NCBI GenBank assembly: GCA_011525845.1
Contig: WYBP01000014.1
Coordinates: forward strand, 124,001-188,000
DNA: 64,000 nucleotides
Reading direction: 5' to 3'
DNA from: Gemmatimonadaceae bacterium
GTDB taxonomy: Bacteria > Gemmatimonadota > Gemmatimonadetes > Gemmatimonadales > Gemmatimonadaceae
In this document: positions 6,750 to 54,623 of the stretch, one piece after another
How positions within the stretch are numbered: the stretch's first letter is position 1
Layout: every line of letters begins with the position of its first letter
Notes under the pieces: generated by a model
Told to the model about the DNA's origin: nothing
Database searches by the model: none
Seen by the model: only the letters and a program-made list of their open reading frames with translations
Position numbers and translations under genes: made by a program

Positions 6750-6772
6750 GCTCCTGCGGATCGTCCGAAGGA

Positions 6773-7087: not shown

Positions 7088-7244
7088 CTGGAGATCTCCT
7101 CGAAAGGATGTGATGATCGCGTGCTGCGCCCGGTCGAGCACGTGCGCGATCTGACTCGAAGGTAAAGCGCTCCCTCTCCGGCGCAATAGGCATTCCCCTC
7201 TGGCGCCCCTCTGGGAAAGCCCCGGTTCCCCTCGGGAACGGACC

Positions 7245-8842: not shown

Positions 8843-8852
8843 CGGCAAGTCC

Positions 8853-9656: not shown

Positions 9657-9662
9657 CCGTGA

Positions 9663-9668
9663 AGTATC
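9663..9668 (-). promoter_or_regulatory. -10-like element (GATACT), probable leaderless promoter
   Basis: On the minus strand GATACT ends 6 bases before the ATG at 9656. A transcript starting at the usual distance would begin at or next to the start codon. The same geometry appears at several other genes in this window. Confidence 0.4.
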
Positions 9669-9758
9669 ACCAGACGCGGGATTAGATTTCCACCGCACGC
9701 CCGGAAGCGCCCGGAGGATCCCGGGATCCCGCTCCGTCCCACCGCAGCCCCCACGACG

Positions 9759-12295: not shown

Positions 12296-12307
12296 CCGGC
12301 GCGCCCC

Positions 12308-13597: not shown

Positions 13598-13726
13598 CGC
13601 TGTCTCGGACAGGACGTCGCTCCTCGCGCGTTGTGAACGGGTTGACTAATCAGCGTCTTCCCGAGTCACTTCCGCAAGCACCCACGTCACAGAGCGCGCC
13701 TGTCCAGGCGCCGGTGCGGTGAACCT

Positions 13727-16072: not shown

Positions 16073-16159
16073 CCGGACTCCGGTGCGACGGACATGAGAG
16101 GGGACCCGGGCATCACGCGACGGTGGTACCCGGGGCGTCGGGGGGAGGTGCCCAGAACC

Positions 16160-17413: not shown

Positions 17414-17488
17414 CGCGCCGTCCCCCTTGCTGGATGCCGCTCCGGCGGGACCATTGCCCCGCGCCCGCGCGCCATCTCCATTTCGTGC

Positions 17489-18976: not shown

Positions 18977-19112
18977 CCCCCGTCACAACCGAACGAGGGA
19001 AGTTTCCGGTGGTATTAACATTCGTCTTGCCTAGGCATCCAACGGGTGAACGCGCGGCGGCTCCCACTCAGCCTCGCGACCACCGGCCGACCGGCCCAAC
19101 AGGAGACGACAC

Positions 19113-19637
19113 ATGTTCCGCAAGTTGATCGCCCCCGCCCTTGCCGCGACCGTGCTGCTGGCCGCGTGCAATGAGTCCTCCACCGGCGTCACCGCCGCGT
19201 CGGACACCGATGACTATGCCCTGCTGATGTTCGGCGAGGCCGGGTCGTCCCTCGAAGGGACCCTCGGTACCGCGCCGGCCGGCGAGCCGTTCGACGGTGG
19301 CACCGCCTTCCACCGGCTCCCCGACACGCTCCGACTGAGCGCCGAACAGATCGATTCCATCCGCACGCTGCGCCAGGCCTTCCGCGCCGAGCATCAGGGC
19401 TCGCTGGACTCGCTGCGCGCCGTCTTCCTACGCGCCCGTGCCGCCCGCCTCGAGGGTGCGACCCGCGAGGAGGTGCACGCCATCCTGCTGGAAGGGCGTG
19501 AGATCGCCCGCGCCCTGCACCCCTACGTGGTGGAGCTGCACCGCGCCGTCTGGGCCGTGCTGACCCCCGCGCAGCGCGCCTGGCTCCTCGAGCACCGCCG
19601 CCGTCCGATCGTGCCGCGCCCGATCGGCCGCCCGTAG
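19113..19637 (+). CDS. Small lipoprotein with Spy/CpxP-like helical region
   Basis: A 174-residue protein with a lipobox LLAAC (residues 15-20) and an AGGAG ribosome binding site. The mature part is helical: LRLSAEQIDSIRTLRQAFRAEH, a central RAVFLRARAARLEG helix, and a repeated VLTPAQRAWL. The paired L(S/T)xxQ motifs resemble periplasmic Spy/CpxP-type chaperone-like proteins. It ends 24 bases before a strong hairpin. The function is inferred only from this helical motif pattern. Confidence 0.6.
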   Translation: MFRKLIAPALAATVLLAACNESSTGVTAASDTDDYALLMFGEAGSSLEGTLGTAPAGEPFDGGTAFHRLPDTLRLSAEQIDSIRTLRQAFRAEHQGSLDSLRAVFLRARAARLEGATREEVHAILLEGREIARALHPYVVELHRAVWAVLTPAQRAWLLEHRRRPIVPRPIGRP

Positions 19638-19661
19638 TCCGGACCGGATGAGCTGACGGAA

Positions 19662-19705
19662 GACGAAGGGGCCTGGCGGAGATCGTTCCGCCAGGCCCCT
19701 TCGTC
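19662..19705. terminator. Bidirectional hairpin terminator
   Basis: A perfect 19-bp inverted repeat (GACGAAGGGGCCTGGCGGA and its complement) with a 6-base loop lies between the convergent lipoprotein gene and the RND pump gene. It can serve transcripts from both strands. Confidence 0.8.
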
Positions 19706-19722
19706 ACGTCGGTCGATGCGCG

Positions 19723-22700
19723 CTACCGCCGCTTCGGGATCGCGAACTCCTCCGTCTTGGGCCGCTCCGGGAACTTGAACCACCCGGAGACGTGCACGCG
19801 CCACTCGTCCATGATCTCGTAGACGGTCGGGATCACGAGGAGCGTGAGGAGCGTGGAGGTGATGGTGCCGCCGATGATCGCGCGCCCCAGCGGGGCACGG
19901 AAGTCCGCCCCTTCGCCGATGCCGAGCGCCACCGGGATCATGCCCGCGATGAGCGCCATCGTCGTCATCAGGATGGGGCGCAACCGCACGCGCCCCGCCT
20001 CGATGATCGCGGCCCGGCGTTCCATCCCCTGCTCCTGCCCCCACTTCGCGAAGTCGATCAGCAGGATCGCGTTCTTCGCCACGATCCCCATCAGCAGGAT
20101 CACGCCGATCATCGACATGATGTTCAGCGTGTCCCCCGTGATGAGCAGCGCGAGCACCACGCCGATCAGCGAGAGGGGGAGCGAGATCAGGATCGCGATC
20201 GGCTCCAGGAACGAGCCGAACTGCATCACGAGGATCAGGTACATCAGGAGCAGCGCGATGCCGAGCGCGGCGAAGATGTCGCCGAACACCTGCGCCTGGT
20301 CGCGCGCCTCGCCGCCGAGCGACCAGCGCACGCCGTCCGGGAGCGGGGTGCGGACGAGCGCGGCCTGGATGTCCGTGGTGACCTCGCCGAGCGAACGTCC
20401 CGAGAGGTTGGCCTGCACCACGATCACGTTGTCGCGATCGAGGTGGCTGATCTTCGCGGGACCGACCCCCTGCGACACGGTGGCGAGCTGTCCGAGCGGC
20501 ATCATGGTCATGCGGCCCCCCTGGCCCGCGACCGCGATCGGGAGCCGTTCGATGTCCGCCACCCGCGTGCGCGACTCGGGGGCGAGGCGCACGCGGACCT
20601 TCCGGTTCTCACCCGCGGGATCGACCCAGTCCCCCGCGTCCACGCCGGCGAAGGCGGGGCGCAGCGACTGCGCGAGCTGCCCGACCGTGACGCCGAGCGT
20701 GCCGGCCAGCGAACGGTTGAGCGCGATCTCGAGCTCGGGCTTCTGCCCCTTGGTGGAGAGCCCCACGTCCACGGCGCCCGGGACGGCGCGCACGAGCTGC
20801 AGGACCGAGTCCGCGGCCTGCTGGAGCACCTGCGTGTCGTTGCCGCGCAGCTCGAGCTGCACCTGCTTTATGGCGCCGCCGAACCCGGAGGTGAAGACGG
20901 CGACGGTCGCCCCGCCGATCCGCTTCACGTCCTCGCGCAGCACCGCGCCGAACTCGTCCTGCGAGAGCGTGCGCTCCGCCTTCGGGATGAGGCGCACGTA
21001 CACGGACGCGAGGTCCACCGCCCCGAGCGCCTCGGAGGGGTCCTGCCCGCCGCCCGCGCCGATGGTGGTGAAGGTGTATCGCACCTGCGGGTGCTCGCGC
21101 GCGATCCGCGCGGCCTCCTCCGCCTTGAGGCGCGTGTACTCGAGGTTCGACCCCGGCGGCGTCTCCACCTGGATCGTGATCTCCGAGCGGTCGGAGACGG
21201 GCACGAACCCGAACCCCCCGAACGTGGCCTGCACCCAGAGCGCACCGACGAGGCTCCCGCCGGCGAGCAGGACCATGGCCAGCCGGTGGTCGAGCGCCCA
21301 GCCGATCAGGCGCGTGTAGTCCCCCGAGCGGCGGTCGAACCACTGGTTGAACTTCTCCAGCTTGCGCGAGATCCAGCTGCGGTGCTGCCCCTCCTCGATC
21401 TCCGGGTCGGGCCAGTACGCCGAGAGCATCGGGTCGAGCGAGAAGGAGACGAAGAGCGAGACGAGCACCGCCATCGCGATCGTGAGTGCGAAGGGCTTGA
21501 ACCACTGCCCCGAGATGCCGTACATGAACGCGATCGGCACGAAGACGGCGACGATCGAGAGCGTCGTCGCGGTGACCGCGAGCCCGATCTCGTCCGTGCC
21601 CTCGTGCGACGCCTTGAAGTGGTCCTTCCCCATCTCGATGTGCCGCACGATGTTCTCGCGCACCACGATCGCGTCGTCGATCAGGATGCCGATCGCGAGC
21701 GAGAGGCCGAGCAGGGACATCGTGTTGAGCGTGAAGCCGAACGCCCAGACGGCGATGAAGCTGGCGAGCACGGAGATCGGGAGCGCGAGCCCCGTGATCA
21801 CCGTGGACCGCCAGGAGTTCAGGAAGAGGAAGACCACCAGCACGGTGAGGAGCGCGCCCTCGAAGAGCGTCCGCTGCACGTTCGCCACCGAGTTGCGGAC
21901 CCGCTCCCCCGCATCCTGGATCACGTCGATCGTCGTGCCGACGGGGAGCGTGGCGCGCACCTCGTCCACCTCGCGGAGCACCGCCTCGCTCACCTGCGTG
22001 GTGGAGTACCCCTTGGACTTCTTGACCATGATCCCGACCGCGTCGCGGCCGTTGTAGATCGCCGCGGTGCGCGCCTCGGCCGTGCCGTCGCGGGCCGTCG
22101 CCACCTCGCCCAGGCGGATGGCCCGCCCGCCGCGCTCGGCCACCACGAGGCGCAGGAAGTCCTCCGGCGTCTCGAGCTTGCCCTTGAGGCGTATCGCGCG
22201 CTCGTCCAGCGAGCCGTTGAGGCGCCCCACCGGCACCGCGAGGTTCTGCGACTGCAGCGCGCCCACCACCTGCGCCACCGTGATCCCCGCCGCCTCCATC
22301 GCGGCCGGGCGGATCTCCACCGTGAGCTCGCGCTCCACGCCGCCCACCACGATCGCCTCGGCCACGCCGGGGATGCCGCGCAGCGCGCGCGTCACGCCCG
22401 GGTCGGCGATGCGCGTGAGCGCCGGCGCGTCGAGCGTGCTCGAGTTGAGCGAGAGCTGCACGATCGGCTGGTCGGCCGGGTCGAAGCGCGTGAGCACCGG
22501 CTCCTTCATCTCCACCGGGAGGTCGGAGCGGATGGAGCTGATCTTGTCGCGGATGTCCTGCGACGCCTGCTGGAGGTCCTTCTCGAACACGAAGAAGACC
22601 GTGACGTTCGCGAAGCCGTCCTGCGCGGACCCCGAGATGCGGTCCACGCCGGAGATGCCGGCGACGGCCTCCTCCACGCGGTCGAGCACCTCGCGCTCCA

Positions 22701-33730: not shown

Positions 33731-33797
33731 GGCGCGCTCGGCCGGGCGCGATAGGAGCCGGCCTCGGCGAGGACGAGGGTCTGCTGCGGAATCGGGG

Positions 33798-34355
33798 CAG
33801 TCCACGCAGCAGGACCCGATTGGGATCGCGGGTGGGGCGAACGTCTATGGATTTGCGGGTGGGGATCCGGTCAACTTCTTTGACCCGTTCGGGCTGTGCA
33901 AGGACAAGAAAGGGAACGAGCGCGAGTGCCTCGTCACCTGGTTGAATAAAGGAAACGAGAAGCCTTCTCCGGAGGCGATGCGCGTGGCTCAGGAGATTGC
34001 AACGCAAGCGGATGTTGACCTGGGGCTCTCGAGTGGCACGCGTTTACCGAAGACGGACTGCACCAAAGCGAATCGAAAGCCCCGGAGTCGGCACAACTGC
34101 GGGCTTGCGTTCGATATTGCGACCGTCAACGGGAAGGTCGTTGGCTCTGGTGAACGTGCAAATCCGGAAGCTGCGGAACTCGTGGTGCGAGTCCAGCGGG
34201 CAGCCCAAGAGCACGCGAACGTGCGGGAGAACTTCGGACCCGCCGGACTCTACTGGAAAGGGTCCGGTTTTTACGGCACCGGAGCTGAACTCATCGCTCT
34301 CTGGTTGGCGCATCAGGACCACGTGCACATATCGATTCACACGCCTTCACCATAG
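33798..34355 (+). CDS. Orphan RHS C-terminal tip A with M15-like zinc peptidase domain
   Basis: The frame opens inside RHS-core sequence (QQDPIGIAGGANVYGFAGGDP...FFDPFGLC) with no start codon before a TTG at 33942, so it is a tip cut from its RHS body. The C-terminal domain has SRHNCGLAFDI and DHVHISIH. These are the SxHxxGxAxD and HxH zinc-ligand motifs of M15 peptidases, which include peptidoglycan D,D-carboxypeptidases and L-Ala-D-Glu endopeptidases. A cell-wall-cutting toxin is inferred. Base composition is visibly less GC-rich than the flanking genes. A candidate immunity lipoprotein follows 205 bases downstream. Confidence 0.7.
   Translation, partial: QSTQQDPIGIAGGANVYGFAGGDPVNFFDPFGLCKDKKGNERECLVTWLNKGNEKPSPEAMRVAQEIATQADVDLGLSSGTRLPKTDCTKANRKPRSRHNCGLAFDIATVNGKVVGSGERANPEAAELVVRVQRAAQEHANVRENFGPAGLYWKGSGFYGTGAELIALWLAHQDHVHISIHTPSP
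33803..33876 (+). repeat. RHS-core 74-bp repeat, copy A
   Basis: Encodes the RHS motif QQDPIGIAGGANVYGFAGGDP. Identical over 74 bases to copies B (37660-37733, minus) and D (42359-42432, minus); copy C (40367-40440, plus) differs at two positions. Identity at synonymous positions points to recent recombination or gene conversion. Confidence 0.9.
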
Positions 34356-35079: not shown

Positions 35080-35310
35080 GAGCCCGAACCCGCTGACCGG
35101 TCAGATCGACGCTCAAGTAGTCCCGGTTACTCGTTTGGTCGGTTGCCTCGTCGACGTCGGGGCGGTGAGCATCGCATCCAAGTCCGGCGGCACCCTGAAG
35201 CGCCCCGGGTTCCCGGGAGACAAGGTTAGTTGGGTGCCACGGCCGAGGAATCGGCCGCGACCCGTTGCTGCTCGTGATACTGCTCCTCAGACTCCGCAGG
35301 GGGGCGGCGG

Positions 35311-35612
35311 TGAGCCCCGATTCTGGGTCCGGCGGCCCCCGCGCGTTGAGTCCGTTCGGAGTCGAGGCCAGACTCGCCGGTCCGGGGACGGAGGTCCGAT
35401 GCGGAAGAGTCGGTTCACGGTGGAGCGGATCCTCCATGCCCTGCGGCAAATCGGAGGCGGGGACGCCGGTGGTCGAGAGCTGTCGGAAGATGGCGGTGAC
35501 GGAGACAACGTTCTATTGCTGGATCGAGCGATACACCGGCGTGAGACTGGTTTGGGGCACCCCATCCTCGCCGGCGAGACGTGCGAGTCGCCGGACCTAG
35601 GTTCGGGGCTCA
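35311..35612 (+). mobile_element. IS3-family deletion derivative (MITE-like, 302 bp)
   Basis: The ends form imperfect inverted repeats of about 27 bp: left TGAGCCCCGATTCTGGGTCC, right complementary to TGAGCCCCGAACCTAGGTCC. A 3-bp direct repeat CGG flanks the element (35308-35310 and 35613-35615), as expected for IS3 family insertion. The interior keeps only the start of orfA and about 80 bp of the right end. It cannot transpose by itself. Confidence 0.7.
35399..35600 (+). pseudogene. IS3-family orfA fragment, frameshifted
   Basis: The ATG at 35399 opens with MRKSRFTVERILHALRQ, the classic start of IS3-family OrfA helix-turn-helix proteins. The similarity then moves to another frame: SEAGTPVVESCRKM and AVTETTFYCWIERY. 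After that the sequence jumps to the right-end DNA of the element. The orfB transposase is missing entirely. Confidence 0.7.
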
Positions 35613-35619
35613 CGGTCCC

Positions 35620-35970
35620 TCTACTAGCACATCTCCCCAGGGGGCTGAATCCAATTACAGCCAGTTTGGCGCATCAGTGTTGCCATCCAGGCTGTAGTCG
35701 GATTCGGCCCTCTCGACGGAGATAGAGACAGAAGGGTCGAGCCCGACGAAAGGCGTGAGTCGCCGCCGATCGACCCGGAGCCGCGAGCGGCGAATCTGGT
35801 GAAATACGCCGCCAGTCGGGAGGGCAGGGCAGTCACCCACGACTGTTGAGCCAACACCCACAACTGCCGGGCCCGCAACCTCAAGTCGCGCGCGATCAAC
35901 AGCGACTCGCGAGCGATGACCGGGATCCAGCGAGCTGTGACGTGCAACTCGCGTCCTGTGAGCGGCGAGT
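35620..35970. other. Island DNA without a recognisable gene
   Basis: From the end of the IS remnant to the minisatellite I see no convincing gene. From about 35880 the sequence already shows degenerate versions of the 21-bp unit found downstream. Several open frames exist on both strands but they arise from the repeat structure. Confidence 0.5.
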
Positions 35971-35977
35971 AGCGGCC

Positions 35978-36208
35978 GATGAGCGACGACTCGCGGCCGA
36001 TGAGCCACGACTCGCGGCCCATGAGCGACGACTCGCGACCGATGAGCAGCGACTCGCGGCCGATGAGCAACGACTCGCGGCCGATGAGCAACGACTCGCG
36101 GCCGATGAGCAACGACTCGCGGCCGATGAGCAACGACTCGCGGCCGATGAGCAACGACTAGCGGCCGATGAGCAACGACTAGCGGCCGATGAGCAACGAC
36201 TAGCGGCC
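35978..36208. repeat. 21-bp minisatellite, 11 tandem units
   Basis: Units of 21 bases keyed on GATGAGCAACGACTCGCGGCC. Seven consecutive units (from 36062) have identical GATGAGCAACGACT cores, four preceding units vary by one or two bases, and degenerate units extend to about 35880 and 36320. Because 21 is a multiple of three, several frames stay open: plus-strand DEQRLAA (a heptad, coiled-coil-like) and MSNDSRP, minus-strand LLIGRES and VVAHRPR. The last three units carry TAG in place of TCG. A 210-codon plus-strand frame (35846-36478) spans the array, but nothing else supports it as a gene. Confidence 0.88.
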
Positions 36209-36474
36209 GATGAGCGCCATCAAGTGCCCGCGCAGCTACGAGTAGCGAGCGATGAGCATCGACCAGCGATCGATGAGCAGCGCCGAGCGGACAATGAGCA
36301 ACGAGAAGTAGTCGATGACTCGCTTCAAGTGGGCTGTGAAACGAGTGCAGTAGCCGATGACGCCCCCTCGGCGGCCGATCACGCCGAACGAGTTCGGCCG
36401 CCCGTGCAGGACGCACACCGGCAGATCCCCCGGGGCCGATTGCGTCCACTCACATCCATTAGAAGGAGGGTACA

Positions 36475-36674: not shown

Positions 36675-36758
36675 ATACACCAGCGTGAGACTGGTATGGG
36701 GCACACTCCATCCTCGCCAGCGAGACGTGCGAACCGCCGGGCGTAGAATCGGGGCTCA
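36675..36758 (+). mobile_element. Second IS3-family right-end remnant
   Basis: 84 bases nearly identical to the right end of the element at 35311-35612 (from ATACACC through GGGGCTCA). No matching left end is seen upstream, so only the right end survives. It lies between the minisatellite region and the tip B module. Confidence 0.65.
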
Positions 36759-36771
36759 CCGCCGTCAATGA

Positions 36772-37203
36772 CTAGATGCCCCCGTTCGGTCCGCGTTCGG
36801 CCTTCAGCTTTGGGAACCAGACGCGCTCCAGTCGGTGCCAGATGGTCAATGCGATTGCCACACCCAGCAGCGCGGCGAGTGGGCACAGCAAGATGCTTCG
36901 CGCGACGGCGTTCGCGAGCCATCCGCTTGCTCCTAGCGGACTCCAATCCGGCGAGAACTCGAAGGAGAATCCTACGATCAGCGCAAGAAGAATCGAGCCA
37001 TACTGCAGCAAACCGCGTGACACGAGATAACGAGCGCGCCCAGCGGCTTGCGCCGCACGCGCCGTCTCAAGCTGAAGGGCGCGTGCCCGCTTCAACCGCC
37101 GCGCAGCCAGCAGACGCAAGTCCTTCTCCGATTTCATCGGTTCATACCCGGTGGAGAGTCTCGCCGACGCTCGTTCTCGAGCCGGACCAACCAGCTTCGC
37201 CAT
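36772..37203 (-). CDS. Two-helix membrane protein, candidate immunity protein for tip B
   Basis: A 143-residue protein from the ATG at 37203. A basic helical N-terminus (RRLKRARALQLETARAAQAAGRARYL) precedes two transmembrane helices: one around YGSILLALIVGFSF, and one around SILLCPLAALLGVAIAL. It starts 7 bases after the tip B stop, which indicates cotranslation. A membrane-embedded partner would suit a toxin that acts on membranes. No family is recognised; the immunity role is inferred from the toxin-immunity gene order. Confidence 0.5.
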   Translation of the reverse strand: MAKLVGPARERASARLSTGYEPMKSEKDLRLLAARRLKRARALQLETARAAQAAGRARYLVSRGLLQYGSILLALIVGFSFEFSPDWSPLGASGWLANAVARSILLCPLAALLGVAIALTIWHRLERVWFPKLKAERGPNGGI

Positions 37204-37210
37204 CACCACT

Positions 37211-37804
37211 CTAGTAGCCGATTCCAAGCCGGTTCTTGATGAGTTCGATCACAAGATAAGTTCCGGTCGAGACTGCCATTCGCCGTGGCGATCCCGTCGG
37301 GACGAAAGCGGCGTGATCACCGCTAGGTAGTTGGGCGCGGACGCCGTCCGCGACGCCGAGGCCCGCATCAGATGCAAGGGCAATTCCCGCCGCGGCCCGC
37401 GCTCGCCAAGCGAGAACTCCCGCGCGCACGGCCAGCGCCCCGCTGGCTACACCGACGACGACGTCAAGCGCTTGTCCCGCTTCCTCGAGCGGCTGATCTG
37501 CAGCGAGCAGACGTTGATACTCCGGCGAACAACCCGCACCAGTCGACCGATTGCATTCCTTGTATCCATCCGCCTGACTGTCGGCCTCTCTCGGACACTC
37601 TTTGGAACCGTCGGCCTGGCTATCCTTCTTGCAGTCGCTTAACCCGAACGGATCGGAATAGTTGACCGGATCCCCACCCGCAAATCCATAGACGTTCGCC
37701 CCACCCGCGATCCCAATCGGGTCCTGCTGCGTGGACCGCCCCGACCGCTGACGGATTCTGCGCTCCGCACCGACGCTTGGCCAGCACCCCGCGTGCGCAA
37801 CCAA
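37211..37804 (-). CDS. Orphan RHS C-terminal tip B, unrecognised hydrophobic effector
   Basis: A frame of 197 codons that begins within displaced RHS-core DNA (STQQDPIGIAGGANVYGF, then YSDPFGLSDC). A short tandem duplication follows: DSQADGSKEC and DSQADGYKEC. The C-terminal 100 residues have a long hydrophobic helical region (ALDVVVGVASGALAVRAGVL, then AAAGIALASDAGLGVADG) and a basic end. I recognise no catalytic motif; a pore-forming or membrane-acting toxin is possible. The RHS body upstream has been replaced by the recombinase gene, which starts 97 bases from the repeat on the other strand. Confidence 0.6.
   Translation of the reverse strand: MVAHAGCWPSVGAERRIRQRSGRSTQQDPIGIAGGANVYGFAGGDPVNYSDPFGLSDCKKDSQADGSKECPREADSQADGYKECNRSTGAGCSPEYQRLLAADQPLEEAGQALDVVVGVASGALAVRAGVLAWRARAAAGIALASDAGLGVADGVRAQLPSGDHAAFVPTGSPRRMAVSTGTYLVIELIKNRLGIGY
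37660..37733 (-). repeat. RHS-core 74-bp repeat, copy B
   Basis: Identical over 74 bases to copies A and D. Same orientation as copy D, 4699 bases apart, so recombination between B and D would excise the recombinase, tip C and toxin D and join the RHS body to tip B. Confidence 0.9.
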
Positions 37805-37830: not shown

Positions 37831-39639
37831 ATGGAGACTCACTCGCGCGATCCCGTGCGGTCACTGCTCGCACACTACCACGCGCGCTTGCTGGCGCACC
37901 CCACCCTCGTCCGGCAGCTCGACGTGCTCGGCCTCGCCACGGCGGACACTCTCGCGACGCACCGCCTCGGATTCGCGGATCGCACGGCTGCGCGGACGCT
38001 GCTCCGTGGACCCGCGCGCGAGCGGACATGGTATCGCGACGCGTGGCGGGCCGCCGGGTTCCTGGTTCCGGCTGGATCCGAGCGCTTTCGGGGATGCATC
38101 GTCCTCCCCCTACAGGGCACCACCCGCGCCGTGGGCTTGCGCGTCTGTGAGCTCGGGGCGCCCGGGTCCCGTGCGCTCTGGAGCGACGCCGACGGGAGCC
38201 GAGTCTTCGCGCCGTCGAGCCCGGCGCGTCCGGAGTTCGCCAGCAGCCTCGTGGTCACCGTCGACCCATTCGACGCCCTCCTGCTGCGAGGCCTCGGGAC
38301 GGGGCACGTGTTGAGCCTGGACGCCATGTCCATCGCGGGCGCCGAGGATGCGGTCCTCGAGCGCCTGCGATCGACGGGAGCGCGGCGACTCCTCGTCGTA
38401 ATCCCCGGCACGACGGCCGGCCGGGCGCTGACGGAGCAGCTGGCTGGGCTGACGATCGCGCGGGCTAGGCTGCAGGGCCGGTTCCTTTCGGTGGTCCTCC
38501 TCCCCGCGGGCTGTCACCTGCGCGACGTATGGCGACTGCACGGCGCTGCAGCGGCTGCGGCGGTCCTCCGTGGCGCCTCATGGCGGCCGCCGCTCACGGT
38601 ATCCACGCGGGACCACACGACCGCACCACGGCGCCATCGGCTCCCGTGGCACGACGCCGTCGGCACGCTGGCCACGGCGTTCGGCGCGTACGTGGCACAC
38701 CTGGAAGCGGGCGGCGCGCCGCGCGACCTCGTCAAGCGCCGCGTCCGCGCGCTCGATGCGCTCCGTCGCTCGTGTGCCGAGTGCACCGAGTGTACCGCGC
38801 ACGCCGTCGTAGACATCGCGGCGCTTTCGGTGGCCTGCGTCGAGGCCTTCCAGACGTCGCAGCTCGCGCAAGTCGACCGCGCGGGTCTCCCCAGCCGGAA
38901 CGGCGTCATCCGCACCCTCTGCGATGTCCGGCACTTCCTGCGCTGGGCACACCGCGCGGGGTGCCTCCCCCAGGACGTCACGTCGGCGCTTCCACCGCTC
39001 CGTCGTACCGCCGCTGCGCCCCCGCCCGTCCTGACCGCTCCCGAGGTCGAGCGGATCCTCGACACGACGCCCGTCCGGACGCCGGGCGGCCTCCGGGATC
39101 GCGCCATGCTGGAGGTGCTCTATTCGAGCGGGATCCGGCGCGTCGAACTCGTCGGACTGGATGTGACCGACCTCGACGAGGTCCGCGGCACGCTCACGAT
39201 CCGCCGCGGCAAGGGCGGCACCGCGCGCGTGGTACCGCTGGGCCGACGGGCCCGGGGCTGGGTGGCACGGTACGTGGAGCGCGTCCGGGTCGCGCATCTC
39301 CGCACTGTCGGCGACCCAGCGCTCTTCCTGTCCCGGCGCGGACGGCGGGTCACCGCCAAGCTCGTCACCGGGCGCATGCGCGCGTGCCTGCGCGCGGCGG
39401 GGATCGAGAAGGCGGGGAGCTGCCACATCTTCCGACACTCGGCCGCGACGTTGATGCACGACCGGGGCGCCGACATCCGCGACCTGCAGGCACTGCTCGG
39501 CCACGCGTTGCTCACCAGCACGCAGCTCTACACACGCGTCTCGATGCAGCGCTTGCTCGCCGTGCACGCGCGGACCCACCCCGCGGAATCACAGGCGGCG
39601 GCGTACGGGTCGGCGGACATTACGCCGAGGACGCACTGA
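37831..39639 (+). CDS. Tyrosine recombinase with N-terminal degenerate primase-type TOPRIM region
   Basis: A 602-residue protein from the ATG at 37831. Residues 1-60 match the DnaG catalytic-core N-terminal domain (LLAHYHARLLAHPTLVRQL, LATHRLGFADRT). Residues 86-106 follow with RFRGCIVLPLQGTTRAVGLRV. Residues 139-205 occupy the TOPRIM position, but the acidic residues are lost: VVTVDPFDAL replaces hhhhEGxxD and VVIPGTTAGRAL replaces the DxDxxG strand. Residues 270-390 are an integrase N-terminal SAM-like domain. Residues 400-575 are the catalytic domain with Arg436, Lys461, His532, Arg535, His558 and Tyr567 all present. The recombinase looks active. It sits inside the RHS tip array and may act on it. 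Confidence 0.82.
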   Translation: METHSRDPVRSLLAHYHARLLAHPTLVRQLDVLGLATADTLATHRLGFADRTAARTLLRGPARERTWYRDAWRAAGFLVPAGSERFRGCIVLPLQGTTRAVGLRVCELGAPGSRALWSDADGSRVFAPSSPARPEFASSLVVTVDPFDALLLRGLGTGHVLSLDAMSIAGAEDAVLERLRSTGARRLLVVIPGTTAGRALTEQLAGLTIARARLQGRFLSVVLLPAGCHLRDVWRLHGAAAAAAVLRGASWRPPLTVSTRDHTTAPRRHRLPWHDAVGTLATAFGAYVAHLEAGGAPRDLVKRRVRALDALRRSCAECTECTAHAVVDIAALSVACVEAFQTSQLAQVDRAGLPSRNGVIRTLCDVRHFLRWAHRAGCLPQDVTSALPPLRRTAAAPPPVLTAPEVERILDTTPVRTPGGLRDRAMLEVLYSSGIRRVELVGLDVTDLDEVRGTLTIRRGKGGTARVVPLGRRARGWVARYVERVRVAHLRTVGDPALFLSRRGRRVTAKLVTGRMRACLRAAGIEKAGSCHIFRHSAATLMHDRGADIRDLQALLGHALLTSTQLYTRVSMQRLLAVHARTHPAESQAAAYGSADITPRTH

Positions 39640-40295: not shown

Positions 40296-40955
40296 GTGGC
40301 CTTGCGCCGCGTCGAGCGGACTGACGGCCGTGCACGACAGGGGCTATGCTCCCAAGGTACGCAGTTCACGCAGCAGGACCCGATTGGGATCGCGGGTGGG
40401 GCGAATGTCTATGGGTTTGCGGGTGGGGATCCGGTCAACTTCTCGGATCCGTTCGGCCGTTGCCCTCCTGAGGACAACAACCTCGACGACTGCCAGACCG
40501 ATCAGAAGGGTGACAAGAAGAGCCAGTACTGCCCCGCAGGAACGCAAGGAACCCCTCCAAACTGCGCGAGCGTCAAGACAGGTGACGCGGTTGCCGGGAG
40601 TTGTCCGAACGTCAGCGGTCAGGAGTGGGATCTTGGGCAAGCCGCGATCAACACATCGATCGCTTCGGGTGTCGAGGAAGGCTTCGCGATCACGGGTACA
40701 GGAGTCATTCCTGCTACCGGACCGAACTTTCTCAGGGCGGAGGGAAGTCTCAGCGCGATCAATGGCTGGCCGACCGGAACTTCGACGCTCGTTCACTCAC
40801 ATCCGAGCGGTTACGGGATAAGTCCTGGCGACGTCAGCATGGCGAACAGTACCGGAATCCGAGTGGTCAGCGCCGGTGTGGGAACGAATCGGTACGGGTC
40901 GGCGAAGCGAGGCAGTCCCGCCGTGTCATGCAACATGCCGCAACGACCGGAGTGA
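40296..40955 (+). CDS. Orphan RHS C-terminal tip C with JAMM-type metal-site domain
   Basis: A frame of 219 codons. The first 25 codons are unrelated; RHS-core sequence starts at FTQQDPIGIAGG and ends SDPFGRCP. The effector region contains LVHSHPSGYGISPGDVSMAN. Its HxHP-x5-SxxD pattern is the JAMM/MPN zinc signature seen in JAB-domain peptidases and related RHS-linked domains. An upstream Glu (EEGFAITG) could supply the catalytic acid. A peptidase-like toxin is inferred. A lipoprotein gene starts 10 bases after the stop. Confidence 0.65.
   Translation: MALRRVERTDGRARQGLCSQGTQFTQQDPIGIAGGANVYGFAGGDPVNFSDPFGRCPPEDNNLDDCQTDQKGDKKSQYCPAGTQGTPPNCASVKTGDAVAGSCPNVSGQEWDLGQAAINTSIASGVEEGFAITGTGVIPATGPNFLRAEGSLSAINGWPTGTSTLVHSHPSGYGISPGDVSMANSTGIRVVSAGVGTNRYGSAKRGSPAVSCNMPQRPE
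40367..40440 (+). repeat. RHS-core 74-bp repeat, copy C
   Basis: Same 74-base block as copies A, B and D, with two substitutions (at repeat positions 40 and 49). It faces copy D head to head, with both toxin tips between them, so inversion would exchange tip D for tip C on the RHS body. Confidence 0.88.
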
Positions 40956-41385: not shown

Positions 41386-41820
41386 TCACGAGCGCCTCAA
41401 CAGAGTCCGGAGCTCCTCGACGAGTACCTTGGTGTCGTCGCCCCGGCCTGCTGCTGCTTCGATGAATCGCTCGAAACGCTGTCGTTCTCGTTCGCTGCGA
41501 ATTGTGTTGCGAGCTATTGCCTGCCGTGCGGCGGCAATTTGCGTCTCCCAACTCTGATTCCCTGCATCCCCAGGTCGTTCTTGGAGAATCGCCTCGAGGC
41601 CGTCACGCTGATGGGGCTCCAAGGTCATCGCCATCTCGTCGACGTCACGAGCAATCACGCGGAGGGCGTTGAGATTCGCGCGCTCCATCTCGCTGCGTAT
41701 CACGTGCCGGAAGTCCTCACCGCTCGGGAACTCCTGAACACGCTCGATGAACTCGATCACGCGTAGGAGACGCGCTCCCAGCGCTCTCGCTTCCTCTGAT
41801 CGCTTTGACGGTGCAGTCAC
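41386..41820 (-). CDS. Soluble helical protein, candidate immunity protein for RHS D
   Basis: A 144-residue, charged, all-helical protein without a signal or membrane segment. GTG start with a strong GGAGGGG ribosome binding site, 28 bases after the RHS D stop. No known domain. A cytoplasmic immunity protein is what a nuclease tip would need, so position and localisation agree. The role is inferred. Confidence 0.55.
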   Translation of the reverse strand: MTAPSKRSEEARALGARLLRVIEFIERVQEFPSGEDFRHVIRSEMERANLNALRVIARDVDEMAMTLEPHQRDGLEAILQERPGDAGNQSWETQIAAARQAIARNTIRSERERQRFERFIEAAAGRGDDTKVLVEELRTLLRRS

Positions 41821-41848: not shown

Positions 41849-43537
41849 CTAACGAATCACCGGACCGAACATGCGTATCGCGGCCGCGTGATAGACGCCA
41901 GCCAGCGGATTAACCGTCGATACGCCACGGATCAAGTTGGCCGATGTTCCACCGTGGCTTTGGGCGCCGCCATTCGCGTCAATCAGTTGCTGTTCCCGTC
42001 CACGAATCGCCGCGTATCCTTGGGCCGTACCTGGGGCGACGCGGTCCACCACCGCAGGACCGAAGCCCGCCAGTCTTGCTGGGTGAGCCGCCGCTCGCGA
42101 GGTGACAAGAGACTGCGCGTCGCCAAAACCGCTCGTGCGACCCGAGTATGTCTCACCGGTTGCGGCATTCGTACGCGTGTAGGTCACGTACTTGAAGTCG
42201 TTGATCTTGTCTGCGACAGCGTCCACGGCGGCATCCACCGCAGCGGCCAACTCCTCCTTCTTTGCTTGGATAACCGCCGCGACCGCGGCTGCGCCGGCGG
42301 CTCCCGCGATGACACCAACCGGAATGGCGCACGGGCACAGCCCAAACGGATCCGAAAAGTTGACCGGATCCCCACCCGCAAATCCATAGACGTTCGCCCC
42401 ACCCGCGATCCCAATCGGGTCCTGCTGCGTGAACTGCCCCGTCGAAGGATCGTAGAACCGATTCCTACGATATAGCATCCCGGTGCTGCCCGCGCCATCC
42501 AGCATCAGGCTGCCGATCCACTGCGGTGTCGACCCTCCGGACCCCCCGAGTGGCGGCTTGTAGTAGATGCTGTTCGCGCTCGGCCAGGAGACGAGCTGGC
42601 AGCCGCTACCGCCAAGGCTGCAGTCCGCCTTGCTCCCGTTCGTCCAGACCGAGCTCTCGGGCAACCCGCGCCAGTTGTAGGTCGGAACGCGCCCGTCCAT
42701 CGTCACCAGCGGCTTGTCGATGCCGCCGGCGTGCACATATCCTGCCTTCCCCCAGTGCGCGCCGCTGCTGGTCAGGTTGTCCAGCGACGTCGTGTCGTTC
42801 CCATTGCGGCGAAGCTCGTAGAGGATCTGGTCGCCGTCCCACACGTAGCGCTCGACCCACTCCGGACACTCGCCGGCTGTGCAGAGCTGCTTCGGGGAGG
42901 CCCCACCGCGTCGGGTCCGCGAGAGGACGCGCCTGCCGAGTGCGTCGTACCGGAACTCTTCCCAGGCGCCGCTGCGCGCAGCGTCCATGGCGTGGTACCG
43001 CTGCACGACCACGAGCTTGTTGTCCGCGGAGTAGTAGCTGCGGGTCGCCGTGTAGTACCGGTCGCCCTCCGTGGTCGCGCGCTGGAAGACCGCTCCGGAC
43101 CTGATGACGTTGCCGCCGGCATCGAGCTGCGTGTACGCGGTGTCCGTGTAGAGCGAGTCCAGCGGATTCTGGTAGGGCCGAACGGGATTCTTGCCCTTCA
43201 GCTCTCCGTTGAAACCGAAGAACGAGATCTGGGGATAGTGATCGGTCGAGGCGCCGATGTCCGACCGCGAGCGCCAGACGGTCCCCATCGCCGTGGCCCG
43301 GAACTGCTCGCTCTCCTCGCTGAACGAGTTCGCCTTCTCCGACCCCACGACAGCTCCGAGGCCGGCGTAGTAGTTGCGGATCCTCTGGTTGCCAACGTCA
43401 ACCGACGCGCTCGCGACCAACACCTCGCGAAGTTTGCCGCGCGCATCGTACCGCATGGTGTCGGTGAGCAGTCCGACGAAGTACGCACCCTCCCTGCGCT
43501 GCCGGTTCAGGATGGTGAGCTGGCCGTCGGCGCACAC
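41849..43537 (-). CDS. RHS repeat protein D, 5'-truncated, with GIY-YIG-like nuclease tip
   Basis: 562 codons from a GTG at 43537, with an in-frame stop about 40 bases upstream. The protein lacks the N-terminal part expected of RHS proteins (PAAR, carrier and most YD repeats). Residues 1-350 contain YD-repeat sequence (YYSADNKLVVVQRYHAM, FRYDALGRRVLSR). The RHS core follows: RFYDPSTGQFTQQDPIGIAG through NFSDPFGLC at about residue 399. The tip (residues 400-562) has YVTYTRTNAATGETYSGRTSG and IRGREQQLIDANGG, the pattern of GIY-YIG/URI-type nuclease toxins. It abuts the D-aminoacylase 3' end, which marks the island edge. Confidence 0.78.
   Translation of the reverse strand: MCADGQLTILNRQRREGAYFVGLLTDTMRYDARGKLREVLVASASVDVGNQRIRNYYAGLGAVVGSEKANSFSEESEQFRATAMGTVWRSRSDIGASTDHYPQISFFGFNGELKGKNPVRPYQNPLDSLYTDTAYTQLDAGGNVIRSGAVFQRATTEGDRYYTATRSYYSADNKLVVVQRYHAMDAARSGAWEEFRYDALGRRVLSRTRRGGASPKQLCTAGECPEWVERYVWDGDQILYELRRNGNDTTSLDNLTSSGAHWGKAGYVHAGGIDKPLVTMDGRVPTYNWRGLPESSVWTNGSKADCSLGGSGCQLVSWPSANSIYYKPPLGGSGGSTPQWIGSLMLDGAGSTGMLYRRNRFYDPSTGQFTQQDPIGIAGGANVYGFAGGDPVNFSDPFGLCPCAIPVGVIAGAAGAAAVAAVIQAKKEELAAAVDAAVDAVADKINDFKYVTYTRTNAATGETYSGRTSGFGDAQSLVTSRAAAHPARLAGFGPAVVDRVAPGTAQGYAAIRGREQQLIDANGGAQSHGGTSANLIRGVSTVNPLAGVYHAAAIRMFGPVIR
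42359..42432 (-). repeat. RHS-core 74-bp repeat, copy D
   Basis: The only copy attached to a longer RHS body. Identical to A and B over 74 bases. Inverted relative to A and C, direct relative to B. Confidence 0.9.
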
Positions 43538-43597
43538 CCATCGTCCGCGCGGTCCTGGTTCTCACCTCGGGGCAGACGATCACGTTCGACGCCCACG

Positions 43598-45208
43598 TCA
43601 GCGGATGCCGCCGTTCCTCCGCAACACCCGCCCCGCCTTCGCGTTCGAGAAGGTCCCCCCGTCCACCATCGCCACCCCGTTCACGAACACGAACGCGATC
43701 CCCACCGCGTACTGGTGCGGCTCGGTGAAGGTCGCCGGGCTCCCGACCTTCGCCGCGTCGAACACCGTGATGTCGGCGTAGCAGCCCACCGCGAGGCAGC
43801 CGCGCTGGCCGGCGAGTCCCATCCGTGCCGCCGGCATCCCCGTCATCTTGTGCACCGCCTGCTCGAGCGTGAGCACATGCTCCTCGCGCACGTACACCCC
43901 GAGCACGCGCGGGAAGGTGCCGTAGGCCCGCGGGTGCGGCACGCCCTCGCCCGGGCGCGAGAGCCGGCCGTCGGAGGCGATCATCGTCTGGGGGTGCGCC
44001 ATGATGCGCCGCACGTCCCCCTCGTCGATCACGTGGTACACCATCGACGCGCCGCCCTTGAGCTCCCCCTCGATCACGAGCTTGGCCGCCGCTTCGAGTG
44101 AGGGCCCCACGCCGCGGCGCTCGGCCCAGTCGTGCAGCGTCTTCCCCTCGAGTGAACGGTCCCAGGAGACGCTGCTGAACTGCACGCGCCGCGTGTCCCC
44201 GCCGCCGCGGTCGGTCTTGAGGTACTCGACGATGCCGCGCTCGATGCTGTCGCGCATCGCGGGGTCGGCCACCCGCTTCCGGAGCTCGGCCGTGCCGCCG
44301 GCGAGCGCCCAGGGTGGGATGAGCACCGCGAGCCCGGTGGAGCTCGCGGTGTAGGGGTACTGGTCGATCATCACGTCGAGCCCGGCGGCGCGCGCCTCGT
44401 CCACCATCCTGAGCGTCTCGACGCTCTTCCCCCACATCGGCTGGCCGACGGCCTTGTGGTGGGTGAGCACCACGGGGATCCGCGCGTCGCGGGCGATGGT
44501 GATCGCCTCGCCGACGCCCTCGAAGAGCCCGAGCCCCTCCTCGCGCAGGTGCGAGGTATAGAAGCCGCCGGAGTCGGCGGCGGCACGCGAGAGCGCGACC
44601 ACCTCGTCCGTCTTCGCGTAGAAGCCCGGCACGTAGCGGAGGCCGGTGCTGATCCCGAAGGCGCCCTCTCCCATCCCGCGCCGGATGAGCGCGATCATCC
44701 GCTGCAGCTCGTCCGGCGTGGGGGCGCGGTTCTCGGTGCCCATCACCGCGCGCCGCACGGTGTTGTGGCCCACGAGGTACGCGACGTTCATCCCGAGTCC
44801 CGCCTTCGACGCGGTGTCGAGGTAGGCGGCGAGGGGCCAGGGGCCGCTCCCGTCGGGGCCGCCGAGTGCGAGCGTCACGCCCTGCGTGACTGCGCTCTTG
44901 GCGTCGGGCATCTGGAGGAGGGGCTCGATGTGCGCGTGGAGGTCGATGAACCCCGGTGCGATCACGAGCCCGGTGGCGTCCACCACGCGCCGCGCGCGCG
45001 CGCGGTCGAGCGGGGTGCGCGAGACGGCGACGATCCGGTCACCGGCGACGGCCACGTCGCCCACGTATCCCGGCGCGCCGGTGCCGTCGACGATCGTGCC
45101 GTTGCGGATGAGGAGGGTCCACTCCTGCGCGTGGACGGATGGCGCCGCGAACGGCGCGGCGAAGAGCGCGGCTGCGGCCGCGGCGAGGTACGTGCGTGCG
45201 CGGATCAT
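43598..45208 (-). CDS. Secreted D-aminoacylase-like amidohydrolase
   Basis: A 536-residue protein with a signal peptide (ending APSVHAQ). The start ATG at 45208 overlaps the serine hydrolase stop. Amidohydrolase-superfamily signs are IVDGTGAPGYVGDVAV, GFIDLHAHIEP (metal-binding HxH), GISTGLRYVPG, TSHLREEG, VVLTHHKAVG and a C-terminal GCYADITVFD. N-acyl-D-amino-acid deacylases of this family remove acyl groups from D-amino acids. With a beta-lactamase-type hydrolase upstream, peptidoglycan or D-peptide turnover in the periplasm is plausible. Confidence 0.87.
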   Translation of the reverse strand: MIRARTYLAAAAAALFAAPFAAPSVHAQEWTLLIRNGTIVDGTGAPGYVGDVAVAGDRIVAVSRTPLDRARARRVVDATGLVIAPGFIDLHAHIEPLLQMPDAKSAVTQGVTLALGGPDGSGPWPLAAYLDTASKAGLGMNVAYLVGHNTVRRAVMGTENRAPTPDELQRMIALIRRGMGEGAFGISTGLRYVPGFYAKTDEVVALSRAAADSGGFYTSHLREEGLGLFEGVGEAITIARDARIPVVLTHHKAVGQPMWGKSVETLRMVDEARAAGLDVMIDQYPYTASSTGLAVLIPPWALAGGTAELRKRVADPAMRDSIERGIVEYLKTDRGGGDTRRVQFSSVSWDRSLEGKTLHDWAERRGVGPSLEAAAKLVIEGELKGGASMVYHVIDEGDVRRIMAHPQTMIASDGRLSRPGEGVPHPRAYGTFPRVLGVYVREEHVLTLEQAVHKMTGMPAARMGLAGQRGCLAVGCYADITVFDAAKVGSPATFTEPHQYAVGIAFVFVNGVAMVDGGTFSNAKAGRVLRRNGGIR

Positions 45209-46554
45209 CGTGTGAGTGCTCCCATCACCTTGCCGAGGAATTCGTCGATCGCGTTGTTCTCGATCCAGCGCACCACCACCACGAGGTCCTGCTCGGGTGC
45301 GACGAACACGAGGTTCGTGCCGTTCCCCACATGCCCGAACGCGCTCGCCGGCGCGCTCGGCATCCACTTCCGGTCCGTGTTCAGGAACCAGTTCATGTAC
45401 CCGTAGGTGGGCTGCGGCACCGTGGGGGTGAGGGAGAGCTTCACCCACTCCTCGGAGAGGATCCGCTTCGTGCCCCAGACGCCGCGCCGCTGCGTGAGGA
45501 GGCCGAAGCGCGCCATGTCCCACGCGTTGATGAACATCCCGCCCCCCCAGTGCCCGCCGCCGCTCACCGCCTGCACGGGGCGCCCGTCGAGGGTGATCCA
45601 GGAGTTGTCGTAGCCGTGCCAGCGCCAGGTGCGCGAGGCGCCGATCGGCTCCATCACGTACTCGTTGAGCACTTCCGGGAGTGGACGGCGCCAGAGGTTC
45701 GTGAGCGCGAGCGCCAGGACGTTCACACGGACGTCGTTGTACTCGTACGCCGTGCCCGGCGCCTTGCGCGCGCGCGTGGTCCACTCGGCCGCGTTCTGCG
45801 CGGGACGGTCGGCCCACTCGGGCTTCCCCCACAACGTCCCTTCCCAGTCGCTCGTCTGCCGGAGGAGGTCGTCCCAGATGATCGTCCGGTTGTGCGGCGT
45901 CTCCCAGAGCGGGAGCATCATCGGCTCGCCGTAGCGCGACCCCGGCTCGCCGGGCGCCTGCGTGCGCAGCGCGTAGGTCGGCGCCTGCGACTTCCAGACC
46001 GTGTCGCGCACGGAGGGGATCAGCCCGCGGTCGAAGGCGAGGCCGGCGGTCGCGGAGAGGAAGCTCTTGGTGACGCTGTGCGTCATGTCCACCCGGTCGG
46101 GCTCTCCCCAGCTCGCGATCACGTACCCGCCGCGCAGCACCACGCCACTCGGCTCGCCCCGCGGCTTGAAGGGGCCGATCCCCTGCCCGAAGGGCTCGCG
46201 GCCGAAGGAGCGGTAGTGGCTCTCCTCCATGTCGCGCGGGGCGCGCGCCTCCTTCTCAACCGCGAAGGCGATAGCGGCGGCGAGTTTCGCGGCGTCGACG
46301 CCCATCGCGGTGGGGGTGCGCGTCTCCCATGTGGCGCCGGGGACGTAGGGTGTTGCCGCCGGGCGGGCGCCGGCCTGTGCCGCGAGGTCCGCGGCGTTCG
46401 TGAATGCGAGCGTCGCGAGGAGGAGTGCCGCGCGGGACAGGGAGACGCGCGGCAGCGGCAGCAGAAGCGCTCGCCCTAGCGGTCGCAATAGCGGTCGCAC
46501 GATCGGTCGCACAGTAGGCCGCGGTCTGCGATGCGGAGAAGGATGGTGTGGCAC
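45205..46554 (-). CDS. Secreted serine hydrolase, beta-lactamase/class C PBP-like family
   Basis: A 449-residue protein. The GTG at 46554 has an AGAGG ribosome binding site; other GTGs at 46512 and 46500 are possible. A long basic N-terminus (RRPRPTVRPIVRPLLRPLGR) precedes the hydrophobic signal region. The catalytic SxxK is SVTK in THSVTKSFLS, and YEYND provides the YxN motif. A KTG-like third motif is less clear (GHVGNGTN). The family covers esterases, D-amino peptidases and beta-lactamases. It overlaps the D-aminoacylase gene by 4 bases. Confidence 0.85.
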   Translation of the reverse strand: MPHHPSPHRRPRPTVRPIVRPLLRPLGRALLLPLPRVSLSRAALLLATLAFTNAADLAAQAGARPAATPYVPGATWETRTPTAMGVDAAKLAAAIAFAVEKEARAPRDMEESHYRSFGREPFGQGIGPFKPRGEPSGVVLRGGYVIASWGEPDRVDMTHSVTKSFLSATAGLAFDRGLIPSVRDTVWKSQAPTYALRTQAPGEPGSRYGEPMMLPLWETPHNRTIIWDDLLRQTSDWEGTLWGKPEWADRPAQNAAEWTTRARKAPGTAYEYNDVRVNVLALALTNLWRRPLPEVLNEYVMEPIGASRTWRWHGYDNSWITLDGRPVQAVSGGGHWGGGMFINAWDMARFGLLTQRRGVWGTKRILSEEWVKLSLTPTVPQPTYGYMNWFLNTDRKWMPSAPASAFGHVGNGTNLVFVAPEQDLVVVVRWIENNAIDEFLGKVMGALTR

Positions 46555-53330: not shown

Positions 53331-53690
53331 ATGTGGGCTGTGCTCAAGACTTTGCTCGTGCAGGGGATCCTCGCCAAGACGCTCCTGCGCTCGTTCGGCT
53401 GGCTGGCGTGGCTCCTCCCCGCCGGCTTCCTGCTCAAGTTCATCGGGCTCCCGCTCCTGGCGGTGCTCGGCGTGCTCGCCGCGCCCGTGCTGGTGCTGCT
53501 CTTCGTGATCGGGCTCCCGGTCTTCGTGGTGCTCCTCTTCGGCGGCGCGCTGATGGCGCTGGTGGGCGTGCTGCTCACCGTGGGCATCGCCCTCGCGAAG
53601 ATCATCATCCCCATCGCGCTGGTGGTGATGGTGGTGCGCTGGCTGCTCCGCCCCAAGGCGCCCGTGCCCGCCACAGGCGAGGTGCACTAG
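53331..53690 (+). CDS. Small, very hydrophobic membrane protein
   Basis: A 119-residue protein from the ATG at 53331 (GGAG eight bases ahead; ATG at 53307 is an alternative). Almost the whole chain is hydrophobic with about four helices and few charges. Its last codons lie in the first unit of an 11-bp tandem repeat, which supplies the stop TAG. No family recognised. Confidence 0.6.
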   Translation: MWAVLKTLLVQGILAKTLLRSFGWLAWLLPAGFLLKFIGLPLLAVLGVLAAPVLVLLFVIGLPVFVVLLFGGALMALVGVLLTVGIALAKIIIPIALVVMVVRWLLRPKAPVPATGEVH

Positions 53691-53768
53691 TGGTGCACTA
53701 GTGGTGCACTAGTGGTGCACTAGTGGTGCACTAGTGGTGCACTAGTGGTGCACTAGTGGTGCACTAGC
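53681..53768. repeat. 11-bp tandem repeat, eight units
   Basis: GGTGCACTAGT repeated seven times perfectly, with an eighth unit differing in the last base. It lies between the convergent small membrane protein and PP2C genes and contributes the end of the former. Each unit contains the palindromes GTGCAC and ACTAGT. As 11 is not a multiple of three, it is unlikely to be selected as coding. Confidence 0.92.
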
Positions 53769-53771
53769 AGG

Positions 53772-54623
53772 TCAGGCAGGGCGCTCCACGGCGCGTCCGA
53801 CGATGATCGACACGTTGTCGGACCCGCCGTCGTCCAGCACCTCCTGCAGCAGCTGCTCGCAGACCTGCTTGGACGAGGTCATCGTCCGCAGGCACTCCGC
53901 GATGCGCTCGTCGCTCACGTGCTTCGTGAGCCCATCGGTGCAGAGCAGGTGCACGTTCCCCCACTCGGACTTCATCCGCGTGACCACGGGGACCGCCTCG
54001 TCCGAGCCGATCGCGCTGGAGAGGATGTTGTTGAAGCGCGAGCGCGCGGCCACCGCGCGCGTGAAGACCCCCTGGTCCACGAGCTCCTGCGCCATCGTCT
54101 GGTCCCGGGAGACCTGGGTGAGTACGCCCTCGCGGTACAGGTAGTAGCGCGAGTCGCCCACCTGCAGGAGGTAGTACCAGGGCCAGACGCCCATCCAGAG
54201 CGTGAGCGTGGTGGCCATCGAGCGGCCCTCGGGCGCCTGCTTGGCCCGCTCGCGGACGGCGGCGTGGCACCGGAGCGCGGCGGCCTGCAGGCTCTCGATG
54301 AACTGCTCCCCCGCGGCATCGTCCTGGAGGAAGCAGTCCGTGCTCGACGTGACGTACTCGGTGGCCACCGAGATCGCCGTGGCGCTCGCCTCGCGTCCCC
54401 CGACCCCGCCCCCGACGCCATCCGCGACCATCGCCAGGAAGGCCACGCGTTGGTCGTCCAGCGGCAGGCCGTGGTTCTCGGGGAGGCTGGAGAGCAGCAC
54501 ATGCAGGCGCTTGTGGATCGTCGCCAGCAGGAAGTGGTCCTGGTTCTCCTTCCGGACCTTCCCCTGGTGGGAGAGTCCGTAGACGTCGATCTCGTCGTCT
54601 CGGGGTTTGCGCTCCGGGTGCAT
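53772..54623 (-). CDS. PP2C family serine/threonine protein phosphatase
   Basis: A 283-residue cytoplasmic phosphatase starting at the ATG at 54623, preceded by GGAGG. PP2C metal motifs: GKVRKENQDHFLL (first Asp), MVADGVGGGVGG (DG pair), LLCTDGLTKHVSD and DGGSDNVSIIV. The N-terminal GLSHQGKVRKENQD is typical of bacterial PstP/PrpC-type enzymes. It should reverse Ser/Thr phosphorylation; no partner kinase is in the window. An insert after the first motif (residues 35-60) is longer than usual. Confidence 0.9.
   Translation of the reverse strand: MHPERKPRDDEIDVYGLSHQGKVRKENQDHFLLATIHKRLHVLLSSLPENHGLPLDDQRVAFLAMVADGVGGGVGGREASATAISVATEYVTSSTDCFLQDDAAGEQFIESLQAAALRCHAAVRERAKQAPEGRSMATTLTLWMGVWPWYYLLQVGDSRYYLYREGVLTQVSRDQTMAQELVDQGVFTRAVAARSRFNNILSSAIGSDEAVPVVTRMKSEWGNVHLLCTDGLTKHVSDERIAECLRTMTSSKQVCEQLLQEVLDDGGSDNVSIIVGRAVERPA

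Follow-up and report, generated by a model that had tools for sequence, protein, structure and literature searches.

A tyrosine recombinase fused to a degenerate primase core as the probable recombinase of an RHS toxin-tip exchange locus in Gemmatimonadaceae

The way in which RHS and related toxins acquire new tips has been a question since tip displacement was first described. Here we describe a gene from a Gemmatimonadaceae bacterium that encodes a tyrosine recombinase fused to a degenerate DnaG-like core (TOPRIM_N plus TOPRIM) and lies among repeats of the end of an RHS core. We consider it likely, with a probability of roughly two in three, that the fused protein is the site-specific recombinase of a locus for the exchange of RHS toxin tips. 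The gene occupies positions 37831–39639 (+) of the 64,000-nucleotide stretch of contig WYBP01000014.1 analysed here (the window), as a single frame of 602 codons without a break. An original prediction, made from the letters of this stretch, had given these coordinates correctly and recognized the recombinase fusion, while it overlooked the RHS repeats around the gene, which are its probable substrate.

The C-terminal half is, judged by its residues, certainly a tyrosine recombinase. Residues 400–573 (39028–39549, +) match Pfam PF00589 with an E-value of 3.1e-36, and the R-K-H-R-H-Y catalytic set of Phage_integrase, already read as retained in the original prediction, is intact, with all six residues located (R436, K461, H532, R535, H558 and Y567). 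The protein scores 246.6 bits against the XerC subfamily model PRK01287 (NF002331), missing the cut-off of 371 bits that a Pseudomonas aeruginosa XerC encoded by a separate gene passes with 480.8 bits, and 89.6 bits against the integron integrase model TIGR02249 (cut-off 265), so it is not of the IntI type. A scan for promoters and terminators around the fused gene found none.

Relatives from Escherichia coli to Gemmatimonadota carry the two halves as adjacent genes, [CHC2-TOPRIM primase][XerC], beside polymorphic-toxin genes, and a different species of the same genus (G004) encodes a full-length relative of the fusion. These proteins identify the N-terminal part (residues 1–262; 37831–38616, +), for which no match was found among Pfam or NCBIfam models. 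When a profile of the two fused N-termini was compared with a profile of ten CHC2-TOPRIM proteins (hhalign), 233 columns aligned with a probability of 96.4 and an E-value of 1.2e-9, in agreement with the predicted DnaG core order. The alignment starts at fusion residue 8 and covers positions 127–368 of the two-gene profile; the window protein has no zinc-finger match, the fused proteins lack the CHC2 zinc finger, and everything C-terminal of the TOPRIM domain in the two-gene proteins is also missing. The TOPRIM glutamate and the two aspartates of the DxD motif are E, D and D in all 12 two-gene proteins aligned; the window protein has V, P and T in their place (E to V, D to P, D to T), bearing out the predicted replacement of the metal-binding residues, and the sister-species fusion has S, A and T. 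The aspartate of the motif after DxD is also gone from both (H and S). The fused pair shares residues unlike those of the two-gene proteins, DPFDA and LPxGCxLR, and this conservation hints at a new role.

Fold comparison agrees with this assignment. A predicted model of residues 1–263, of moderate confidence (predicted local distance difference test (pLDDT) score 65.3, predicted template modelling (pTM) score 0.65), was searched with Foldseek, and all 14 matches at E ≤0.001 were DnaG cores (2au3 with E 2e-9). Structure-comparison Z-scores reached 19.4 for DnaG, T7-type primase-helicase and Twinkle entries scored 12 to 13, and RNase M5 led the remaining TOPRIM proteins at 11.5. A DnaG-like fold had been predicted, and the model shows it. 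Because the alignment behind the model contained TOPRIM relatives, and the single-sequence prediction gave an unusable model (pLDDT 39.3), the claim is carried by the sequence comparison and the fold is only supporting. A sequence search of the N-terminal part against solved structures gave no credible match (best E 0.024, to a designed repeat protein). Taken together, the profile, residue and fold comparisons support a primase-derived N-terminal part that has lost its metal-binding residues. The role suggested for it in the original prediction, a DNA-binding or regulatory module for site-specific recombination, is plausible and would fit the kept fold.

The sister-species protein is 46% identical over both halves, its TOPRIM region is conserved along the entire length (38% identity), and the recombinase catalytic residues are intact in both species. 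Since the same fusion occurs in a second species at this divergence, an assembly or frameshift artefact is ruled out: the possibility that the halves are separate genes, raised alongside the original prediction, holds for the relatives, but not that they were joined here by error. A profile of the fused N-terminus matched 4 of 179 genomes of the family, two of them fused and two with separate genes, and 3 of 17 genomes of the genus; an earlier single-sequence search of a phylum sample had matched 2 of 298. Relatives of the N-terminal part were not found in viral contigs, nor in plasmids when this part alone was the query. In a recombinase tree of 26 rows, several deep forks of which are open, the two fused recombinases pair (100/100) and then join the two-gene XerC of L014, a locus of the same family (91/91; L014 and G307/L040 were counted as one record). 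They sit within the module group, and two other XerC/D-like genes of the window's own genome fall outside it. A plain XerC/XerD housekeeping gene is ruled out by the fusion, the location and the tree. These comparisons support an origin of the fusion from a CHC2-TOPRIM-ATPase-like protein and a XerC-type recombinase, encoded by the paired genes of a widespread module, with the DnaG core kept and the zinc finger, C-terminal part and metal-binding residues lost.

The surroundings of the gene point to a substrate. An RHS core-end repeat of approximately 100 nucleotides (nt) occurs four times in the window, once on an RHS gene and three times as an orphan. The RHS gene is present as its C-terminal part only, a 562-residue open reading frame (ORF) with an attached tip (41849–43537, −; TIGR03696 Rhs_assc_core, E 2.1e-15), which begins at 43537 without the N-terminal RHS region, beside an amidohydrolase ORF (region 41849–45832), and may be truncated. 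Its repeat (42341–42441, −), with the proposed recombination site at the upstream edge, leads into a tip of 190 residues from the DPIG codon (41849–42421, −). Each orphan repeat opens into a different tip of 170–192 residues, and two of the three are inverted relative to the RHS-gene copy: those at 40361–40463 (+), with an open tip of 192 residues (40377–40955, +), and at 33797–33899 (+), with one of 180 residues (33813–34355, +) and a weak peptidase M15-like match (Pfam E 0.00059, below the cut-off). The third (37643–37743, −), just upstream of the fused gene, has the orientation of the RHS gene and opens into 170 residues (37211–37723, −). Searched against Pfam, the tips were mostly without a match. 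A 144-residue ORF after the attached tip (41386–41820, −) and a 151-residue ORF after the 37211 tip (36772–37227, −), neither with a Pfam match, are possible immunity genes by position.

In the sister locus, an RHS ORF of 1884 residues is followed by a 193-residue ORF and the fused gene. Behind these lie five core-end repeats, which occupy the opposite strand and are all inverted relative to the attached RHS copy. The repeats are spaced 993–1452 nt apart and lead into open tips of 191–202 residues, none of the five with an in-frame start before it; one tip has a weak peptidase M23 match below the Pfam cut-off. All eight orphans, three from the window and five from the sister genome, thus open 170–202 residues in the core frame. 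With the DPIG codon as the common anchor of the alignment, the mean identity of orphans to the attached copy, sampled every 10 nt between −30 and −10, is 0.23, 0.77 and 1.0 in the window and 0.32, 0.46 and 1.0 in the sister locus. The orphans are unrelated to the attached copy upstream of this limit and gain identity within about 20 nt, and the one upstream limit is common to 8/8 orphans of the two fused loci.

This shared limit bears on a published route to such arrays, in which homologous recombination, as proposed for enterobacterial rhs tips in the portion of Jackson 2009 (PMC2935791) available to us, would have built them and the recombinase would be a bystander. The repeats, 96–134 nt long and 85–95% identical, could serve RecA-dependent exchange, and both that model and the Salmonella case of Koskiniemi 2014 (PMC3967940), as far as the available text goes, rest on homology; the core fragments described in PMC2935791, however, vary in length.

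A second argument comes from E. coli, where the two-gene XerC was found in 53 of 5426 genomes, at chromosomal places throughout. In strain SCU-113, two tandem units of approximately 8.8 kb stand behind an rhs gene, each with tip, immunity-type, SymE, helix-turn-helix, primase and XerC genes, and strain Ec-U9-1 has the same rhs locus without the unit. Between these two alleles, without (L036) and with the element (L034), identity is 99.8% over the 600 bp before the site, compared with the attached copy, and 100% over the 800 bp after it, compared with the sequence behind the last unit; the element array lies between, and the switch point falls exactly at GACCCGATAGGG. A search with the array end gave matches in 122 genomes, and three of the 60 matches listed begin exactly at the site. 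A 60-nt element end stands directly before the site at 8/8 copies read with that end (L034 two, L035 three, L038 two and L008 one); other copies in these loci carry a different upstream sequence (L034 6101, L035 6099) or a core fragment (L034 14948, L035 14937, L008 5937, L038 13095). Among the 5426 genomes searched, all 55 that hold the element end have it followed by the site in their best place. At the level of sequence, these comparisons demonstrate that the insertion point of the E. coli elements in rhs genes is exact to the nucleotide and coincides with the start of the DPIG codons closing the RHS core. The inserted element, on the same allele comparison, brings its own tip and leaves the old tip downstream. 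An unrelated element end abutting the site at every copy read with it is left unexplained by homology, and we regard homologous recombination with a bystander recombinase as very unlikely.

Two further E. coli observations stand apart from this argument. At another locus (ybgA/phrB side), L038 carries two further primase/XerC units with tips (5557–21044), and in L037 the tip of an RHS fragment gene (7672–9441) is preceded by a long piece of core, whereas the element-linked orphans start at the site.

Outside E. coli, XerC relatives on plasmids were found by tblastn with the window protein. Among the first four regions, three have a large annotated CHC2/TOPRIM gene shortly upstream of XerC and the fourth has unannotated pieces there. 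The suggested survey of homologues for RHS tips was made on ten plasmid loci, taken from top-ranking matches rather than at random; it revealed clear polymorphic-toxin or RHS neighbours in seven (L007, L008, L009, L028, L031, L032 and L033) and looser ones in two (L029, invasin-type; L030, FhaC-type), and no toxin neighbour was seen at the Leptospira locus, L010. In the family of the window, L014 presents an RHS gene, an ORF on the opposite strand that by eye reads like a helix-turn-helix regulator, a CHC2-TOPRIM gene, a XerC gene overlapping it by 4 nt and an orphan tip in direct orientation. In G300, from the window's genus, an RHS end occurs together with an inverted orphan and the beginning of a CHC2-TOPRIM gene. 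The layout at a P. aeruginosa tpsA gene is similar: a short site occurs three times, and an open tip follows each copy. Where the attached copy of a two-gene locus is in view, orphans are mostly direct, with one inverted case (L027).

A short TTCTTTAGC-like motif also lies near two-gene modules in three phyla (L007 4334, L014 6452 and 12657, L010 10070 and 11323). L008 (8758 bp, Shigella-labelled) and L032 (11289 bp, Lonsdalea) were deposited as circular plasmids that consist mostly of tips, a helix-turn-helix gene, primase and XerC; they are possibly free circles of the element, or else assembly products. They were not counted as proof of an excised circle, as L008 has two sites and could be a collapsed tandem repeat.

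On the tip-exchange reading, the fused recombinase would act on the core-end repeats of the window. Most orphan repeats of the fused loci face the opposite way from the RHS gene, so the expected product is an inversion; it would bring a different start-less tip into frame with the RHS core, in the manner of a shufflon. The attached tip would be traded for a silent one and the frame would be kept, all copies being read in the same DPIG frame, and the dead TOPRIM part would bind DNA or pair recombinase subunits or sites instead of making primers. The layout of a shufflon, with inverted repeats and alternative in-frame C-terminal segments, is present in both fused loci, as is that of an RHS orphan tip array, a core-end fragment followed by an open tip. 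Relatives suggest that this recombinase family adds toxin tips to an RHS gene, and removes them, at a single precise position; such exchange could account for changes of warhead.

Several observations weigh against this reading. One of the three window orphans is not inverted relative to the RHS gene, the fused form is rare (2 of 179 family genomes), and no convincing inverted-repeat (dyad) recombinase-binding site was found at the Gemmatimonadota sites (the best had 6-bp arms, 0.70 matched). The boundary of the E. coli relatives lies approximately 10 nt further downstream than that of the fused loci. Neither fused locus, each represented by one genome, showed a recombination event, and the core-end repeats, being also coding, could be used for homologous recombination. 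Finally, the RHS gene of the window is present as a C-terminal piece, and the locus may therefore be in decay.

This last point leads to a rival explanation, a decaying mobile element. The fused gene would be the integrase of a former two-gene-type integrant at the core/tip junction, and the orphans would be leftovers of integrations, deletions and inversions, with no programmed switching today. The missing N-terminal part of the RHS ORF, the lost primase residues, a weak transposase-like remnant and ORFs of low GC content at third codon positions (GC3) close by, and the rarity of the fusion would all fit. Against it, the recombinase residues are intact in both species, the TOPRIM region has been kept over its whole length in both fusions, and the sister genome has a long RHS gene and five open, regularly spaced tips. 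We consider decay unlikely. The tip-exchange reading can also be stated more broadly: primase-bearing elements in many phyla might carry tips as replicating circles, inserted by a XerC-type recombinase at a fixed point of toxin genes, and in this genus one such pair might have merged and been domesticated as an RHS tip shufflon run by a single gene, with the dead core as the DNA-binding arm of the recombinase. We offer this version tentatively and think it somewhat doubtful.

The closest known systems share parts of this arrangement. In the R64 shufflon, the tyrosine recombinase Rci lies beside alternative C-terminal segments of PilV with inverted repeats, and inversion is proven. The fused loci likewise combine a tyrosine recombinase, alternative C-terminal segments and inverted repeats, whereas the shufflon has another protein target, short sites and no primase-derived domain, and inversion here would follow from the layout. 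Integrons combine the IntI recombinase, attC sites and an array of start-less cassettes; they differ in that the cassette sites of the window are coding RHS sequence, and in the integrase score given above. The two-gene CHC2-TOPRIM and XerC (PRK01287) elements are homologous in both halves and have the same target, the RHS core/tip junction, but differ in their separate genes, CHC2 zinc finger, intact TOPRIM acids, long C-terminal part and mostly direct orphans.

Orphan rhs-CT arrays, as described in the available portions of PMC2935791 (C-terminal displacement, core fragments of variable length) and of PMC3967940 (evidence of recombination between main and orphan rhs in Salmonella), are alike in their displaced start-less tips with a core-end fragment beside an RHS gene; relative to these portions, the fused loci add a recombinase gene, a fixed boundary and mostly inverted orphans. 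Integrase genes near orphan rhs or cdi modules, and so among tip arrays, appear in what we could consult of Steele 2017 (PMC5727410) and Ruhe 2016 (PMC4927057), with the suggestion that they aid tip capture; set beside that text, the primase link, the site mapping and the fused primase-recombinase are found only here. The accessible parts of Zhang et al. 2012 and Iyer et al. 2008 place XerC/D beside polyimmunity loci and report mobile elements that carry integrases along with primases or polymerases, respectively. A literature search by titles and abstract openings, with most subscription journals outside its scope, found no publication on a CHC2-TOPRIM/XerC tip element or a dead-primase fusion, in line with the original prediction, which knew of no described system with this architecture. 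As far as could be seen, what is new is the fused dead primase and the mapping of the sites, whereas tip exchange, shufflons and integrases close to tips are known. The fusion is a clear case of a DnaG core retained after loss of its catalytic acids and joined to a recombinase. This recombinase family makes tip gain testable, as it offers a mapped E. coli insertion point, two alleles that differ by the element and a fused variant accompanied by an array of tips.

Some further features of the window were recorded. Within the tip region, 35265–35600 has a weak transposase helix-turn-helix match under the cut-off, and a stretch of approximately 85 nt is repeated (35531–35613 and 36675–36764), with partial inverted copies at 35161–35190 and 35305–35343; the match and the repeats together resemble insertion-sequence debris. 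A 21-nt tandem repeat at 35821–36360, listed in 18 overlapping registers, is open on both strands (DEQRLAA / LLIGRES), and an 11-nt tandem repeat, GGTGCACTAGT, lies at 53659–53789, listed in nine overlapping registers.
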